A stretch of DNA of 64,000 nucleotides from Microbacterium sp. KUDC0406 (GTDB lineage: Bacteria > Actinomycetota > Actinomycetes > Actinomycetales > Microbacteriaceae), in NCBI RefSeq assembly GCF_021582875.1, contig NZ_CP091138.1, forward strand, positions 1,922,001-1,986,000, in the 5' to 3' direction. The position numbers and the translations under genes are program-made. This document shows positions 14,801-23,546 of this stretch, one piece after another. The stretch's first letter is position 1; every line of letters begins with the position of its first letter. The notes under the pieces were generated by a model, which was not told the origin of the DNA, did not search any database, and worked only from the letters and a program-made list of their open reading frames with translations.

Positions 14801-14897
14801 AGCCTACCCGATGGGCGCGCGCCGCGGATGCCGAAGATCCGAGCATTACGGGCCTCGGCCCCTCCCCTGCGGCGCGCCATCAGGATAGGTTTTGTTC

Positions 14898-16409
14898 ATG
14901 GCCCTTCCTGATTCCCTGCCACTCGTCCCCTACCCCGTCGATGTCCGCAGAGAAGAGGGTGTGATCCCCCTGGCTTCCGCGCGCATCTCCGGCGACGCCG
15001 CCGTCGCCGGGCAGCTGCGCGACGCGCTGGTCACGCGGACCGGCATCCGGTCGCAGATCGTCGGCGGCGGAACGGATGCCGAGATCGCGCTGTCCGTCGA
15101 TCCCGCCGTCGGCGGCCCCGAGGCGTACCTCCTCGACACGAGGGAGGACCGCGTCCTCATCACCGGCGCGGACGCCGCCGGGCTGTTCTACGGCACCCGC
15201 ACGCTGCTGCAGCTGGTGCATGAATCGGATGCGGGATGGGTCGTCCCCGCGTGCGCATCGAGGATGCTCCGCGCTTCGCGTACCGCGGCGTGATGCTCGA
15301 CGTCGCGCGGCACTTCTTCGGCGTCGACGATGTGAAGGCCTACATCGACCGCGCCGTCGACCTGAAGTTCAACCACCTGCACCTGCACCTCACCGACGAC
15401 CAGGGCTGGCGTCTGGAGATCGACTCCTGGCCGCTGCTCACCGAGCGAGGGTCGGGCAGCGACACCACCGGCGGCGAGGGCGGGTTCTTCACGAAGGACC
15501 AGTACCGCGAGATCCTCGCCTACGCCGCCGACCGCCACGTCACGGTCGTGCCCGAGATCGATCTGCCCGGTCATACGCACGCGGTGGGCGTCGCCTACCC
15601 CGACCTCGTCGAGCAGCCCTGGCTCAGCGAGCAGTCCGTCGCCGAGCAGGCGGCGCTCGGCATCCCGCTGCCGGTTCACGGCGAGTTCTACCGTCGGCGC
15701 CGCGGTGGGGCACTCCTCGGTGCGCATCCACGAGGAGCGCACCTACGACTTCGTGGGCGACGTGCTGAGAGAGGTCGCGGAGATCACCCCCGGCCCGTAC
15801 CTGCACATCGGCGGCGACGAGTGCCTCGGCACGCCCGCCGCGGACTTCGCGCTGTTCTTCGAGCGGGTCAGCCGTATGGCCGCCGACACCGGCAAGATCC
15901 CCGTCGCCTGGCACGAGGCGGGTGCCGTCGCCGGCATCGCCGAGGGCACGATCGGGCAGTACTGGGGCAGCGTCGAGCCGAAGGGCTCGCATGCCGAGGA
16001 AGCCGGGCACTTCGTGGAACGCGGTGGCTCGCTGATCATGTCGCCGTCCGACCGCACCTATCTCGACATGAAGCCCACTGCGGACTTCCCGCTCGGGCTG
16101 GTCTGGGCGGGGATCGTGCCGGTGCGCGCCGCCTACGAGTGGGAGCCGACCGCGGTCGTGCCGGGCCTTCCCGCCGAGGCGATCCTCGGGGTCGAGGCGC
16201 CGCTCTGGACCGAGACCGTCACCACCATCGCCGCGGGCGACGCGCTGGTCTTCCCGCGCATCGCCGCGCACGCCGAGACCGCCTGGTCGCCGAAGGACGG
16301 CGCCGAGCGCAGCTGGGAATCGTTCCGCACCCGAGTCGCGGGCCTGGCTCCCGCGTGGGAGGCTTCCGGTATCGACTTCACCCGTTCTGAGGAGATCGCA
16401 TGGGCATGA
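14898..16409 (+). CDS. Cytosolic GH20 beta-N-acetylhexosaminidase (two frameshifts)
   Basis: This intracellular hexosaminidase of about 504 residues has no signal peptide. It should split GlcNAc from imported chito-oligosaccharides or muropeptides. It has the GH20b domain (residues 1-130), then the barrel with HLHLTDDQGWR, VVPEIDLPGH, and the catalytic HIGGDECLG. The frame shifts twice: a missing C near 15243 and an extra base near 15692. Correcting both gives VVPRVRIEDAPRFAYRG and YVGAAVGHSSVRI. TAGGTT lies exactly six bases before the ATG at 14898, so translation is probably leaderless. It overlaps nagA by 10 bases, so GlcNAc release and deacetylation of its phosphate are co-expressed. Confidence 0.88.
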
Positions 16410-17573
16410 CCGACAGCTCGGCACAGGGTTCCCTGCTGATCCATTCCGCGCGGCTGGTGAACGACGGCCTCATCGTCGACGACGCCTGGGTCCTCATCGA
16501 GGACGGCCGTGTCGCCGAGCTGGGCGTCGGGCAGGACCGGGCCGATGCCGACACGATCGTCGACGCCACCGCCGTCGCCGGCAGCGGCGCGATCCTCACC
16601 CCCGGATTCATCGACATCCACGGTCACGGCGGCGCCGGTGTCGCCTTCGATGACGGCGTCGCCGCCATCCGCACCGCCCGTGACATGCACCGCACCCACG
16701 GCACCACCAGGGCCGTGGTCTCACTGGTGACGGGGTCGCTCGACGCGCTGGCGGCGCGGGTCGCCGAGATCGCGGACCTGCGCGAGACGGATGCCGACAT
16801 CCTGGGCAGCCACCTGGAGGGCCCGTTCCTCGATCCCGGACACAAGGGCGCACACGATCCGGAGCTGCTCCGCGAGCCGACCGGCGGCGACGTCGAGCGA
16901 CTGCTCGAGGCCGGCCGCGGCACCGTGCGGCAGATGACGATCGCGCCGGAGATCCCCGGCGGTCTCGAGGCGGTGCGCATCGTGGTCGCGAGCGGCGCGG
17001 CCGCCGCGATCGGACACACGGACGCCGACGACGACACCGTGCGCGCGGCGTTCGATGCCGGCGCATCGATCCTCACGCACGCATTCAACGCCATGCGGCC
17101 GATCCACCATCGCAACCCGGGGCCGGTGCTCACCGTCGGCGGCCGACCATCGCGTGACGCTGGAGGCGATCGTCGACGACATCCACCTGCATCCGCATGT
17201 GACGAAGCTGCTGTTCGACGAGGCCCCCGGCCGGGTCGCTCTCATCACCGACTCGATGGCGGCCGCCGGATCCGTCGACGGCGAGTACTCGCTGGGCGGG
17301 CTGCATGTGACCGTGCTCGACGGCGTCGCACGCGTCGACTCCGGGTCGATCGCCGGATCGACCCTCACCCAGGATGCCGCGCTGCGCAACGCGGTCGCCG
17401 CCGGCGCCACGCTCTCCGAGGCGGTGCGCGCGCTCACCGAGACCCCGGCGGCGGCGGTCGGATTCGGCGAGGAGCTCGGCGCACTGCGACCGGGGATGCT
17501 CGGCGACGCGGTGCTCCTGAACGCGGACCTGCAGGTCGTGCGGGTCTGGACCGGCGCGCGCACCGCGCGCTGA
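16400..17573 (+). CDS. nagA: N-acetylglucosamine-6-phosphate deacetylase (frameshifted)
   Basis: NagA removes acetate from GlcNAc-6-phosphate to give glucosamine-6-phosphate. The metal and catalytic residues are all visible: IHGHGG, SHLEGPF, IGHTDADD, LTHAFNAM, and the catalytic Asp in ITDSMAAAG. One extra G near 17140 shifts the frame between PVLTV and AADHRVTLEAIV. With the correction the length is about 390, normal for the family. Two starts are possible, ATG 16400 and ATG 16406. GAGGAG lies five bases before the first, and the second would give an ATGA overlap with the GH20 stop. It is followed by a strong terminator. Confidence 0.92.
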
Positions 17574-17591: not shown

Positions 17592-17620
17592 AGGCCGTCG
17601 CACCCCAGATGCGACGGCCT
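17592..17620 (+). terminator. Terminator after nagA
   Basis: Perfect 11-base arms (AGGCCGTCGCA and its complement) enclose a 7-base loop, starting 19 bases after the nagA stop. Confidence 0.75.
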
Positions 17621-17988
17621 CGGTCCCTGTTTCGGGCAGTTTCCCCAGTTCCAGAGCCGGTGGGGCTCGGGAGCTCCTCCCCCGAGGATCCCGAGCCCAC
17701 CGACCGGCGCATCGCTCTGCACCGGCTGTCGTCCGCGACCGCCCCCCGGTGGCGCGTGCGACATGCTCTACGGATGAGACGACGGTCGTCGTGATTCATT
17801 ACGCGGGTTCTGCAGAAACTTTCCCGAGAGGTTGATCCGCAGTCGCCGGGAGTTGTGCACAGGGGCTTTCCGAATCATGGAGTTGGGGTGAGAATGGATG
17901 AGGCGCGTGACGAATCCGGAGTTCACGCGTCTCTTCTTGTGAGACCGCTCCCGCGGCCCTGGAAGCTCTATCAGCCTGGGAAAGATCT
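17621..17988. other. Non-coding gap before the sigma-factor gene
   Basis: About 370 bases lie between the nagA terminator and the sigma-factor start. They hold no convincing ORF. A GC-rich imperfect inverted stretch is present (GGCTCGGGAGC with CCCGAGCC, about 17666-17698). The last 180 bases are more AT-rich and are the likely promoter region for the downstream gene. I could not identify a definite -35/-10 pair. Confidence 0.5.
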
Positions 17989-20316
17989 GTGCACGACGAC
18001 ACCACCGACGACCTGACGGCAGACGCCGATCTCGTCCTCCGCACCCGCTCGGGTGACGCCGCAGCGTTCGGCGAACTCTGGCGTCGGCACTACCCCTGCG
18101 GGGTCGCGGTCGCCCGCTCGGTCACCTCGACGATCGACGCCGACGATCTCGTGCAGGAGTCGTACGCCCGCATCTACCAGGCGATCCTCAAGGGCGGTGG
18201 CCCGAACGGTTCGTTCCGGGCGTATCTGTTCACCAGCATCCGCAACACCGCCGCCGCCTGGGGCCGTGCCCGCAGGGAGACCGCGATCGACGAGCTGGAC
18301 ACCGTCGTCGACCCGAGCAGCACCGACCAGGCTGCCGAGGAGGCCCTCGACCGGGGTCTGACCGCCCAGGCGTTCCGCAGTCTCCCGTCGCGCTGGCAGG
18401 AGGTGCTCTGGTACTCGGAGATCGAGCAGATGAAGCCGGCCGAGATCGCGCCGCTGCTCGGGATGAAGGCCGGTGCCGTCTCGCAGCTCGCCTTCCGCGC
18501 GCGCGAGGGTCTGCGCGAGGCGTGGATCCAGGCGCATCTGCGCAGCGCTGAGCCGGGCTCGGACTGCCAGTGGACGATCGAGCATCTCGGCGCCTACTCG
18601 CGCGGCAACCTCGGCGTGCGTGACCGCAAGCGCCTCGAAGCCCATCTGGACGACTGCGCGCGATGCATGATCGTCGCCGCGGAGGCGAAGGACGTGTCGA
18701 ACCGGCTCGCCCTGGTACTGCTCCCTCTCGTGCTCGGAGTGGCCGGCGCGGGTGGCTACCTGGCTGCCCTGCAGGGCGGCGGAACCCCGATCGTGGCTCT
18801 CGCTGCGATGCCCTCCGACGTCGTCGAGGGCGCCGTGGTCGCCGGCAGCGCGACGGCCGGCGCCGCCGCAGGTGGCAGCCAGGCGGCAGGATCGGCGGCG
18901 GGCACCGGCGGCACGGCCGGTGGCTCGGCCGGCGGGGCGCTCACGGGTATCGGAGCGCTCGTCGGTGCGGGTTCGGCCGCGCTTCTCGTGGCCGGGGTTG
19001 TGGCCGCCGTCGCGGTCGTCCCCAGCATGCTGAGCGCCGCGCCTGCCACGTCGCAGCCTTCGGCCGGCGACGACGACCCGTCGTCGATCTCGTCGGAGGT
19101 CTCGCCCGACCAGTCGGTGCTCGACCAGCAGCCGGTCGTGATCGAGGTCGAGGACGAGCCGCAGCCGGATGCTCCGCAGCCGGAGGAGCCCCCGGCGACC
19201 GATGCCGATGCGCTGCCCGCTCCGGCGCCCGAGGCATCCTCCGCACCGTCGGCCGATGCGGTGAAGCCCGCTCCGCCGGCCGCTCCGACCGATCCGGGGA
19301 CGGAGCCGGGCACCGATCCGGGGACGGAGCCGGGCACCGACCCCGGAACCGACCCGGGCACCGACCCCGGAACCGACCCCGGAACCGACCCCGGAACCGA
19401 CCCGGGCACCGACCCCGGAACCGACCCGGGCACGAACCCCGGAACAGATCCCGGCACGGACCCCGAAACTGACCCGGGCACAGACCCCGAAACCGACCCC
19501 GGAACAGATCCCGGCACGGACCCCGAAACTGACCCGGGCACAGATCCCGGAACCGACCCCGGCGCCGACCCCGGCACCGACCCCGGCACCGACCCCGGCA
19601 CAGACCCCGGCACAGACCCCGGCACAGACCCGGGAACCGACCCCGGAACGGACCCGGGAAGTGAAGTTCCGGCCGCACCGACGGTGACTTGGGGGCCGGC
19701 GAGCGTCTGGATCGACGGCAACTTGGTGACGCACGTATCGATCCCGCTCAGCGGTACCCCCGGCGCGACGGTCGAAGTGCGGGTCCTGCTGGACGGTGCC
19801 ACGGAAAGCAGCACGGACATCACTCTGGACCAGTCCGGCAAGGGCACCGCCGAGTTGCGCCCCACGCTCGAGCAGATCTTTCGCAATGCGTCAGTGACAT
19901 TCCGCGCCGTGATCGACGGCTCCGCCGGGGATCTGCACACCACGCGGCTGCGCGCCCTGGGTGCCGGATCGACACTGCAGTCCGCTCCAGCGGACACGGC
20001 GGCGCTGGCTGCTGCCACGCAGACCGATGCTCCCGCTGCTTCTGTCGAGTCGAAGGTCCCGGCGAACGAGACGGCGGCACCCGCGGCTCTCCAGTCAGAG
20101 GATGCCGCCGCGCCCGCTTCCAATGCCGAGCCGGCGCCGCCCGCCTCCGCTCCGGCTGCCGCGGCTCCGGCCGTGACCGAGGGATCCGCACCGAAGTCCG
20201 AGCCGTCAGAGGCTCCTGCCCCGTCCGACGCGCCCGAGTCGGACGACGCCACGTCGGCCGACTCGAGCCCCGTCGGCGATACTGCATCGACCGACGGCAC
20301 AGCCGCCCTGGACTGA
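17989..20316 (+). CDS. ECF sigma factor fused to anti-sigma zinc finger, membrane segments and DPGT-repeat tail
   Basis: This 775-residue protein joins parts that are usually separate. Residues about 12-97 are sigma-70 region 2 (DADDLVQESYARIY, FRAYLFTSIRNTAAAW). Residues 125-180 are region 4 (LPSRWQEVLWYSEIEQMKP, LLGMKAGAVSQLAFRAREGL). Residues 193-228 look like a zinc-binding anti-sigma module (H219-x3-C223-x2-C226). Hydrophobic segments lie at about 239-261 and 320-348, separated by a Gly/Ala/Ser-rich stretch. From 435 to 558 come 31 tetrapeptides of DPGT type, then an Ig-like segment of about 90 residues (PTVTWGPASVWIDG), and a Pro/Ala/Ser-rich end. A GTG start follows GGGAAAG. Fused sigma/anti-sigma proteins exist in Actinobacteria. 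Here proteolytic release of the sigma part on an envelope signal is a hypothesis. Whether the tail is outside depends on an odd number of membrane passes, which I cannot settle. Confidence 0.85.
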   Translation: MHDDTTDDLTADADLVLRTRSGDAAAFGELWRRHYPCGVAVARSVTSTIDADDLVQESYARIYQAILKGGGPNGSFRAYLFTSIRNTAAAWGRARRETAIDELDTVVDPSSTDQAAEEALDRGLTAQAFRSLPSRWQEVLWYSEIEQMKPAEIAPLLGMKAGAVSQLAFRAREGLREAWIQAHLRSAEPGSDCQWTIEHLGAYSRGNLGVRDRKRLEAHLDDCARCMIVAAEAKDVSNRLALVLLPLVLGVAGAGGYLAALQGGGTPIVALAAMPSDVVEGAVVAGSATAGAAAGGSQAAGSAAGTGGTAGGSAGGALTGIGALVGAGSAALLVAGVVAAVAVVPSMLSAAPATSQPSAGDDDPSSISSEVSPDQSVLDQQPVVIEVEDEPQPDAPQPEEPPATDADALPAPAPEASSAPSADAVKPAPPAAPTDPGTEPGTDPGTEPGTDPGTDPGTDPGTDPGTDPGTDPGTDPGTDPGTNPGTDPGTDPETDPGTDPETDPGTDPGTDPETDPGTDPGTDPGADPGTDPGTDPGTDPGTDPGTDPGTDPGTDPGSEVPAAPTVTWGPASVWIDGNLVTHVSIPLSGTPGATVEVRVLLDGATESSTDITLDQSGKGTAELRPTLEQIFRNASVTFRAVIDGSAGDLHTTRLRALGAGSTLQSAPADTAALAAATQTDAPAASVESKVPANETAAPAALQSEDAAAPASNAEPAPPASAPAAAAPAVTEGSAPKSEPSEAPAPSDAPESDDATSADSSPVGDTASTDGTAALD
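19291..19662 (+). repeat. 31 tandem 12-bp units encoding (D/E/N)P(G/E)T
   Basis: The stretch is exactly 372 bases, or 31 codon-phased 12-base units with third-position variation. Most encode DPGT; variants are EPGT, NPGT, DPET, DPGA and a final DPGS. The phase-preserving design favours expansion or contraction by recombination without frame loss. In the protein it makes an extended acidic, proline-rich spacer. Confidence 0.95.
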
Positions 20317-22631: not shown

Positions 22632-22641
22632 TCCTCCACCC

Positions 22642-22729
22642 CTTCGACAGGCTCAGGGACCCACTTCGACAGGCTCAGGGGCCCACTTCGACAGGCTCAG
22701 GGACCCACTTCGACAGGCTCAGGGGCCCA
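22642..22729. repeat. Four tandem 22-bp repeats (CTTCGACAGGCTCAGGG type)
   Basis: Units begin at 22642, 22664, 22686 and 22708 and alternate between GGGACC and GGGGCC endings. Related single copies occur at 38698-38720 and 50896-50916. They lie in the gap between the convergent Nudix and nagB genes. Confidence 0.9.
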
Positions 22730-22767
22730 CAGGACTGGGTCGCTGGGGCGTGGGGATCGAAGCGTCG

Positions 22768-23546
22768 TCAGATGCCCTGCCAGGCGGGCTTGTTCGCGTA
22801 GGTGTAGCGGTAGTAGTCGGCCAGCTTGAGCTTCGAGGCCGCGGCCTCGTCGACGACGACGGTCGCGTGCTCGTGCAGCTGGATCGCGGAACCGGGAGGA
22901 TGGCCGACAGCGGTCCCTCGACCGCGTCGGCGATCGCCTGCGCCTTGCCCTCGCCGAAGGCGAGCAGCACGAGGTGCCGAGCGCGCAGGATCGTGCCCAG
23001 GCCCTGAGTGATGCAGTGCATCGGCACCTGATCGATCGAGTCGAAGAAGCGCGCGTTGTCCTCACGGGTCTGCTCGGTGAGGGTCTTCACCCGGGTGCGC
23101 GAGGCGAACGACGATCCCGGCTCGTTGAAGCCGATGTGCCCGTCGGTGCCGATGCCGAGGATCTGCAGATCCACTCCGCCGGCGGCGTCGATCGCCGCCT
23201 CGTAGTCGGATCCCGCGTGCTCGATGGTCGCCTCGGCGCCGTTCGGAACGTGCACCCGGGCCGGATCGAGACCGAGAGGCTCGACGACCTCGCGCGTGAT
23301 GACCGACCGGTAGCTCTCGGGGTGCGCCGGGTCGAGACCGACGTACTCGTCGAGCGCGAAGCCGCGCACCTGCGACAGGTCACGGCCACGGACGCGCTCC
23401 GCGAGCGCCTGGTACACGCCGAGCGGCGTGGAGCCGGTCGCGAGCCCGAGCACGGCGTCGGCCTTGCGGTCGAGCAGCTCGACGATCTCCTGGGCGACCA
23501 GCGCGCCGGCGGCGGCCGCGCTCTTGACGATGACGACTTCAGCCAT
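22768..23546 (-). CDS. nagB: Glucosamine-6-phosphate deaminase (frameshifted near C-terminus)
   Basis: NagB converts glucosamine-6-phosphate to fructose-6-phosphate and ammonia, completing GlcNAc entry into glycolysis. Family motifs are present: [25 protein letters not shown] with the catalytic acid, and [14 protein letters not shown]. Near 22895 one C is missing from a C run. With it restored the protein continues [16 protein letters not shown] to the expected end AWQGI, at the stop at 22768. Length is then about 259. It overlaps the ROK kinase by 8 bases and is the last gene of the repressor-kinase-nagB operon. Confidence 0.92.

Follow-up and report, generated by a model that had tools for sequence, protein, structure and literature searches.

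ECF sigma factors that are fused to their own anti-sigma factor and bound to the membrane have been described for the groups ECF48, ECF52 and ECF53, and SCO4117 of Streptomyces coelicolor, which belongs to ECF52, is the best understood of the actinobacterial fused factors (PMC8999054). For the ECF52 group, a membrane tether and proteolytic release of the sigma factor have already been proposed (PMC5826349). The protein examined in the present study is encoded in a 64,000-nucleotide stretch of the genome of Microbacterium sp. KUDC0406, here referred to as the window, and like the members of ECF48, ECF52 and ECF53 it is a single polypeptide in which an ECF sigma factor is combined with a zinc-finger anti-sigma domain and with a long tail that follows one or two membrane helices (PMC5826349, PMC8999054). 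With ECF52 it shares a zinc-finger anti-sigma domain C-terminal to the sigma part (PF13490, residues 193-226), and one or more membrane segments that are followed by a Pro-rich extension. Unlike ECF52, it has an Ig-like domain and a hypervariable stalk, whereas a carbohydrate-binding domain, which the accessible parts of the sources ascribe to ECF52, was absent from its extension in a Pfam search at E≤1. The only Streptomyces locus that we found (L123) was not used as a yardstick for ECF52, as no fused architecture was apparent there. A further relative by design is IutY of Pseudomonas putida (ECF243), in which a sigma factor fused to a membrane anti-sigma factor is freed by regulated proteolysis; unlike the present protein, IutY is from a Gram-negative bacterium and answers the siderophore aerobactin, and the accessible part of its description mentions no stalk or Ig-like tail (PMC8999054). 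Since fused membrane-bound factors of ECF48, ECF52 and ECF53 had already been described, the protein belongs to a known type and differs in its tail, and the novelty of the locus is the promoter pair and the RNA upstream of it, not the fused protein itself. The linked RNA and the sortase-type targets described below are not mentioned for ECF52 in the parts of the sources that were accessible, and no prior description of the linked RNA, the promoter pair or the surface-protein targets was found in the open literature library. The features of the locus are listed in Table 1.

Table 1. Features of the fused sigma factor locus, with positions in the window.
Feature	Position	Strand	Details
Gene for the fused factor (ECF sigma, anti-sigma, membrane part, stalk, Ig-like domain)	17989..20316	+	775 aa, GTG start, homologues
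ECF sigma domain	18076..18507	+	region 2 = residues 30-93, region 4 = residues 127-173; Pfam PF04542, PF08281
zf-HC2 / ZAS anti-sigma domain	18565..18666	+	residues 193-226; PF13490 3.3e-7, above cut-off
Membrane part	18706..19032	+	hydrophobic 240-258, weak 268-286, Gly/Ala/Ser loop, hydrophobic 330-348
Tetrapeptide stalk	19291..19662	+	31 in-phase units, of which 23 are exactly DPGT; residues 435-558
Ig-like beta sandwich (predicted)	19654..19992	+	residues 556-668; AF2 and 28-row alignment
ECF-type promoter of sigma gene	17905..17933	+	GCGTGAC-N16-CGTCTC, 29 nt
Second ECF-type promoter, divergent from the first	17776..17804	-	GCGTAAT-N16-CGTCTC
Candidate small RNA	17592..17775	-	four conserved hairpins, G-run loops

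The preliminary description of this DNA had recognised sigma regions 2 and 4, an HxxxCxxC motif, hydrophobic segments and an Ig-like end within one frame, and this was borne out by Pfam, hydrophobicity analysis and AF2. The frame is without internal stop codons. Sigma70_r2 (3.4e-8) and Sigma70_r4_2 (5.6e-7) were both found above the curated Pfam cut-offs, and the presence of regions 2 and 4 only, together with a TIGR02937 match at 1.1e-20 (74 bits versus a cut-off of 42.9), identifies the N-terminal part as an ECF sigma factor. The AF2 block means of pLDDT were at least 90 over the sigma domain, except for residues 91-120, and the top Foldseek matches of the model were the sigmaE-RseA structure 1or7 and AlgU-MucA, with a TM of 0.22 across the entire query. 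It should be noted that the model of residues 1-365 had a pTM of 0.48 and low confidence at residues 267-351, and that the packing of the sigma and anti-sigma domains against each other, in which a class I zinc anti-sigma (ZAS) domain would form a clamp between sigma regions 2 and 4, is unreliable in it. Class I ZAS domains are recognised by an HxxxCxxC motif with a Cys or His ligand upstream. In our protein this motif reads HLDDCARC (residues 219-226), its H, C and C are present in all of 121 related proteins, and C193 is located upstream of it. The zinc ligands of the anti-sigma domain are likely to be C193, H219, C223 and C226.

The repeat region had been described as 31 exact tetrapeptide units. 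All 31 units are indeed in phase, but the eight that deviate from DPGT read DPET (three), EPGT (two), NPGT, DPGA and DPGS. At the DNA level, TRF scored the array at 372 (threshold 50), with a period of 12, 28.9 copies and 80% matches, and the stalk repeat varies from one relative to another. Structure prediction had been suggested for residues 560-655 and 190-350; the former are contained in a region that AF2 models as an eight-stranded Ig-like sandwich (pLDDT 88.5, pTM 0.77), and the latter overlap the aforementioned stretch of low confidence. A structural search with the Ig-like domain gave nothing at E≤0.001 and generic neighbours only; among the best of these were glycosidase accessory parts, UNC119, CARDB and GbpA. 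Beyond this domain, the C-terminal end of the protein is Pro/Ala-rich.

On which side of the membrane the tail resides had been left undecided in the preliminary description, and this question can now be answered to a large extent. In the set of 121 proteins, which are mutually related and in part incomplete, the tail contains no Cys in 63 cases (including our protein), two in 56 and one in only two, and in the 40 of the 56 two-Cys tails for which spacings were listed these are near 94 or near 36, as would be expected for disulphides. Parsing succeeded for 119 of the 121 proteins; in these, the 15 residues preceding the first membrane segment contain on average 3.3 K/R, while the 30 residues following the last segment contain 0.18 K/R and 4.9 D/E. 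A comparable asymmetry was observed across the retrieved loci, which yielded 43 close and distant family members once nine loci had been excluded as duplicates or because they were split, truncated or tail-less: the 20 residues before the last membrane segment contain two D/E in total and those after it 94, and K/R flanking this segment amount to 21 before and eight after (equal in 31 proteins, fewer after in 10 and more after in two). The tails of relatives point in the same direction. In the distant relative L053, which is 28% identical across residues 11-226 and whose sigma matches are under the Pfam cut-offs, the tail ends in a SpaA domain and, after it, LSMTG, a run of hydrophobic residues and KRQRK, an arrangement that resembles a sortase signal; this protein (L053:1294-3030) may therefore be anchored to the wall as well as in the membrane. 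Because 119 of the 121 tails have either no Cys or two, we conclude that the tail of the fused sigma factor is very probably located outside the cell. The proposal of a tethered sigma/anti-sigma fusion with an exterior tail thus finds support in the domains, the tail Cys counts, the D/E asymmetry and the tails of the relatives. Either one or three segments may cross the membrane, AF2 being uninformative on this point owing to its low confidence at 267-351; by hydrophobicity, three windows above 1.6 were found in 35 of the first 60 proteins, two in 22 and four in three.

A search for the same architecture in other genomes gave matches in many Microbacterium genomes and beyond. At E≤1e-3 the protein search returned 1731 homologues among 7992 scored proteins, and the best 120 of these, which were examined, come mainly from Microbacterium as far as their source is named. 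At E≤1e-20, matches to residues 1-364 of the query were present in 71 of 99 Microbacterium genomes and in 83 of 248 sampled genomes of the order, and at E≤1e-15 in 75 of 199 genomes of the family, with our own genome counted in each case; some of these matches cover the sigma part alone. On this basis, fused ECF/anti-sigma factors with extracellular tails appear to be common in the order. The stop-to-stop frames of relatives reach up to 1638 codons. Pfam analysis of the tails of four relatives detected SpaA above the cut-off in L053 and fn3 in L016 (26.5 bits, cut-off 25), and Big_13 and CARDB below the cut-off in L026 and L050. In one genome of the family (G101) the query has 10 matches, the tails of which differ from each other; seven of these loci (L041-L047) were read. 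In L036 the sigma gene is about 50% identical and the tail is missing, and L039:638-1333 encodes a protein of 231 residues with a sigma factor and a zinc anti-sigma motif, and without membrane part or tail. Sigma and tail parts in separate genes were not seen among the close relatives, aside from two genomes (G091 and G232) in which the match is divided between frames at residues 173-176. We read these two cases as frame breaks and not as truly separate genes, although without certainty; in G091, the assembly of which is 68% complete, the tail is apparently shifted again downstream.

The sigma gene is preceded by frames for a hexosaminidase and for nagA, and the preliminary description had proposed from this vicinity that the protein may sense amino-sugar polymers. 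Our analysis does not support this idea. In 54 of 55 named loci nagA is located directly upstream, and in the same 55 loci glyA and folD are conserved in 51 and 48 cases, respectively. As glyA and folD are conserved along with nagA, the entire block represents synteny, and we do not consider the gene neighbourhood as evidence for amino-sugar sensing; moreover, the extension lacks a recognisable carbohydrate-binding domain and the Ig-like domain has generic matches only. The regulatory link that was seen in this analysis is to surface proteins. Both the hexosaminidase and the nagA genes are broken into several frames in the assembly: changes of frame occur within the hexosaminidase gene (window 14892-16409), nagA (16400-17573), probably nagB (22719-23546) and the surface-protein gene at L170 that is described below. 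At these places the assembly therefore has either frame errors or real breaks; the sigma gene is intact. A 22-nt unit (ACCCACTTCGACAGGCTCAGGG) is repeated 4.3 times at window 22638-22730, downstream of a nudix gene.

The region upstream of the sigma gene contains two divergent copies of the promoter consensus CGTRAY-N16-CGTCTC, one facing the sigma gene and the other the minus-strand RNA. A CGTC at -10 combined with such a spacing is typical of ECF promoters. In a 260-nt alignment of 33 rows, comprising the window and 32 named Microbacterium loci, the block CGCGTGAT...CGCGTCTC is conserved upstream of the sigma gene in most rows. The sigma-gene promoter pattern was found in the window and 45 of the 55 named loci, always with a length of 29 nt except in L104 (30 nt), and the minus-strand copy in the window and 34 of the 55. 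Both copies are present in 31 of these 56 loci, at a spacing of 95-156 nt. We also considered that the window might contain a palindromic operator (CGCGTGA..TCACGCG) in place of a promoter, but dropped this reading because the arms vary while both boxes stay constant. Our own 3.6 Mb genome contains three matches to the consensus and the reversed control none; two are the divergent copies at the sigma locus, and the third is located at G000:C1:2680007-2680034. The motif that has been proposed for SCO4117 in the source as far as it was accessible (CSGYN-17bps-SRHA) differs from this consensus.

Downstream of the minus-strand promoter, the alignment reveals consecutive hairpins in which runs of G are invariant, and no conserved reading frame was seen in it. 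The RNAalifold consensus has 36 pairs, which form in 93.8% of the cells of 27 sequences. Changes on both sides of a pair were counted in 66 cells versus 20.8 +/- 4.1 upon shuffling, a number that was reached in none of 500 shuffles, and slid versions of the structure gave at most 26; the number of pair types was less striking, being reached by 28 of 500 shuffles. The transcript is likely to be the minus strand, because G-U cells outnumber A-C cells by 85 to 11 and the mean folding energy is lower on the minus strand (-109.0 versus -97.3 kcal/mol). No credible Rfam match was obtained; the near-matches, with E-values of 0.044 to 3.3, were far under the gathering scores and were regarded as chance. 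The RNA thus appears, as judged from its sequence, to represent an undescribed actinobacterial family.

To follow this RNA in other genomes, a covariance model (R1) was used that excludes the promoter and was built from 27 rows of the 32-row alignment A1. It yielded one match in our own genome and 42 matches in 37 of 99 Microbacterium genomes and, with stricter filters, matches in two of 150 genomes of the family, both of them Microbacterium. Of the 42 matches, 40 (in 35 of the 37 genomes) are located upstream of the sigma gene and divergent from it, at 145-504 nt, and the two that are elsewhere are among the four weakest. When the main sigma place or places of 62 genomes were considered, with the weaker paralogue rows excluded, 27 genomes had no RNA match beside the sigma gene. 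Since the training sequences had been taken from sigma loci, we checked their overlap with the 35 linked genomes: seven contain a training sequence, so that their linkage follows from the way the model was built, and 28 contain none. In these 28 genomes the promoter pattern ends at the base directly before the RNA model for 24 of 33 matches, and the same holds for 31 of all 40 linked matches, the exact pattern being missing in nine. Tandem copies of the RNA were found in five genomes, and both copies have their own promoter in four of them (G002, G021, G023 and G060, not G029).

Of the three promoter sites in our own genome, the third lies 60 nt upstream of a gene whose secreted product contains the domains Big_8 and DUF5979. 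This gene loses its frame near the end in the assembly, and a sorting-signal-like stretch is found further downstream in a different frame. Within the genus, the pattern had 337 matches and its reversed control 58 (both being sums over a table); 150 of the 337, from 43 genomes, were examined. Among these 150, an extended motif was present in 48, with 30 at the sigma locus and 18 elsewhere. We then inspected 19 sites, namely the extended-motif sites off the sigma locus, including the one in our own genome, and one loose match (L178). Genes for surface proteins follow five of the 19 (L170, L171, L175, L176 and L188): the third site of our own genome and four of the 18 extended-motif sites elsewhere precede genes with Big_8, SpaA or DUF5979 domains or sorting signals. 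UGGGG occurs within 100 nt at all five of these sites versus two of the other 14, the background of TGGGG in the window being about 0.06 per 100 nt. At the latter 14 sites no surface protein was seen, and many of them are inside long frames; 11 of the 19 lie in frames of at least 250 codons. At L177, L178 and L179 (in the Microbacterium genomes G028, G065 and G074), the promoter motif is followed by another conserved G-C-rich stretch, which may represent a further family of RNAs controlled by this sigma factor.

Three other explanations deserve attention. The conserved promoter could be read by another sigma factor, either a further ECF factor or the housekeeping one, with the fused sigma factor being merely a target. 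This would account for the observation that the loose pattern occurs in 96 of 99 Microbacterium genomes and a match to the fused gene is missing from 28 of the 99. However, 17 of the 18 listed off-locus rows with the extended motif are in genomes with the fused gene, which make up 32 of the 43 genomes listed, and the position of 11 of the 19 inspected sites within long frames is what would be expected of chance matches. That the RNA and the sigma gene have one promoter in common is consistent with autoregulation. Control by another sigma factor is a possibility that we take seriously while judging it rather unlikely. The upstream hairpins might also be no more than the plus-strand terminator region of nagA, with the minus-strand motif being incidental. 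G-C-rich hairpins are indeed frequent as terminators, the last hairpin is found shortly after the nagA stop codon (17573), and nagA precedes nearly all of the named loci. Against this stand the excess of G-U over A-C cells and the folding energies, both of which favour the minus strand, as well as the promoters that abut the RNA and accompany most of its tandem copies. As the promoter abuts the RNA also outside the training-set genomes, the probability of a terminator is slightly lowered, and we consider it improbable.

The remaining explanation concerns the protein itself: with two membrane passes, the sigma factor could be constitutively tethered and the tail cytoplasmic, serving as a passive linker, in which case activity would be set by zinc or redox chemistry of the anti-sigma domain, as in factors of the RsrA type. 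The two strong hydrophobic segments of our protein, with a weak third, and the invariance of HxxxCxxC are compatible with this. Nevertheless, the parity of the tail Cys, the number of acidic residues before and after the last segment, and the SpaA, fn3 and Ig-like tails and sortase-like end of relatives all argue against a cytoplasmic tail, and we give this arrangement little credence.

We consider it probable, with appreciable room for doubt, that the locus encodes an envelope-sensing, self-inhibited sigma factor with itself, a partner RNA and surface proteins under its control. In such a system, the ECF sigma factor would be tethered to the membrane and carry its own zinc anti-sigma domain, and the variable stalk and Ig-like domain would be exposed on the outside, either within the cell wall or past it. 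A cue at the surface that acts on the tail would then release or unlock the sigma part, presumably through proteolysis by analogy with ECF52 and IutY. The freed sigma factor would read CGTRAY-N16-CGTCTC at its own gene, at the divergent structured RNA and at genes for sortase-type surface proteins elsewhere. Lastly, the RNA shares UGGGG with the mRNA leaders of surface proteins and probably tunes their translation. The sequence itself shows the domain architecture, the asymmetry on either side of the membrane part, the two promoters, the conservation and covariation of the RNA and its linkage to the sigma gene, whereas we infer the use of these promoters by this sigma factor, the cleavage, the signal and the way in which the RNA acts.

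Sponge RNAs of the CsrB/RsmZ type have several hairpins that expose a short G-rich motif, which is also found near the start codons of their targets. The candidate RNA is similar in that a G-run motif is present in several hairpin loops and UGGGG in all five surface-protein leaders, but its loops are mostly GGGG or UGGGG instead of the strict GGA of RNAs that partner with CsrA, and it has no credible match in Rfam; in the fold of the window RNA, one of the UGGGG runs is located in an unpaired segment and not in a loop. The 6C RNA (RF01066) is a small actinobacterial RNA with homopolymer loops, from which the candidate differs by having G and not C loops on the transcribed strand. The candidate did not match RF01066, and 6C was not found in our own genome, for which reason we rejected the idea of a sponge for 6C RNA. 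In Streptomyces coelicolor, the small RNA scr4677 is likewise encoded beside an anti-sigma gene, but, as far as the accessible part of the source describes it, that gene is separate and the layout is another (PMC3896431). A tentative and rather doubtful extension of our reading is that a membrane protein reaching across the wall senses contact or the state of the wall and, once released, switches adhesins twice, by transcription and by means of a four-hairpin RNA that copies the UGGGG of their leaders and would mop up a UGGGG-binding repressor, either a protein or a C-rich RNA, in the manner of a Csr-like sponge within an ECF circuit.

Altogether, the promoter, the linked RNA and the class of targets can be read from the sequence, and this makes the output of the fused sigma factor directly testable in Microbacterium. 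In addition, the UGGGG motif of the RNA points to an RNA-binding partner.
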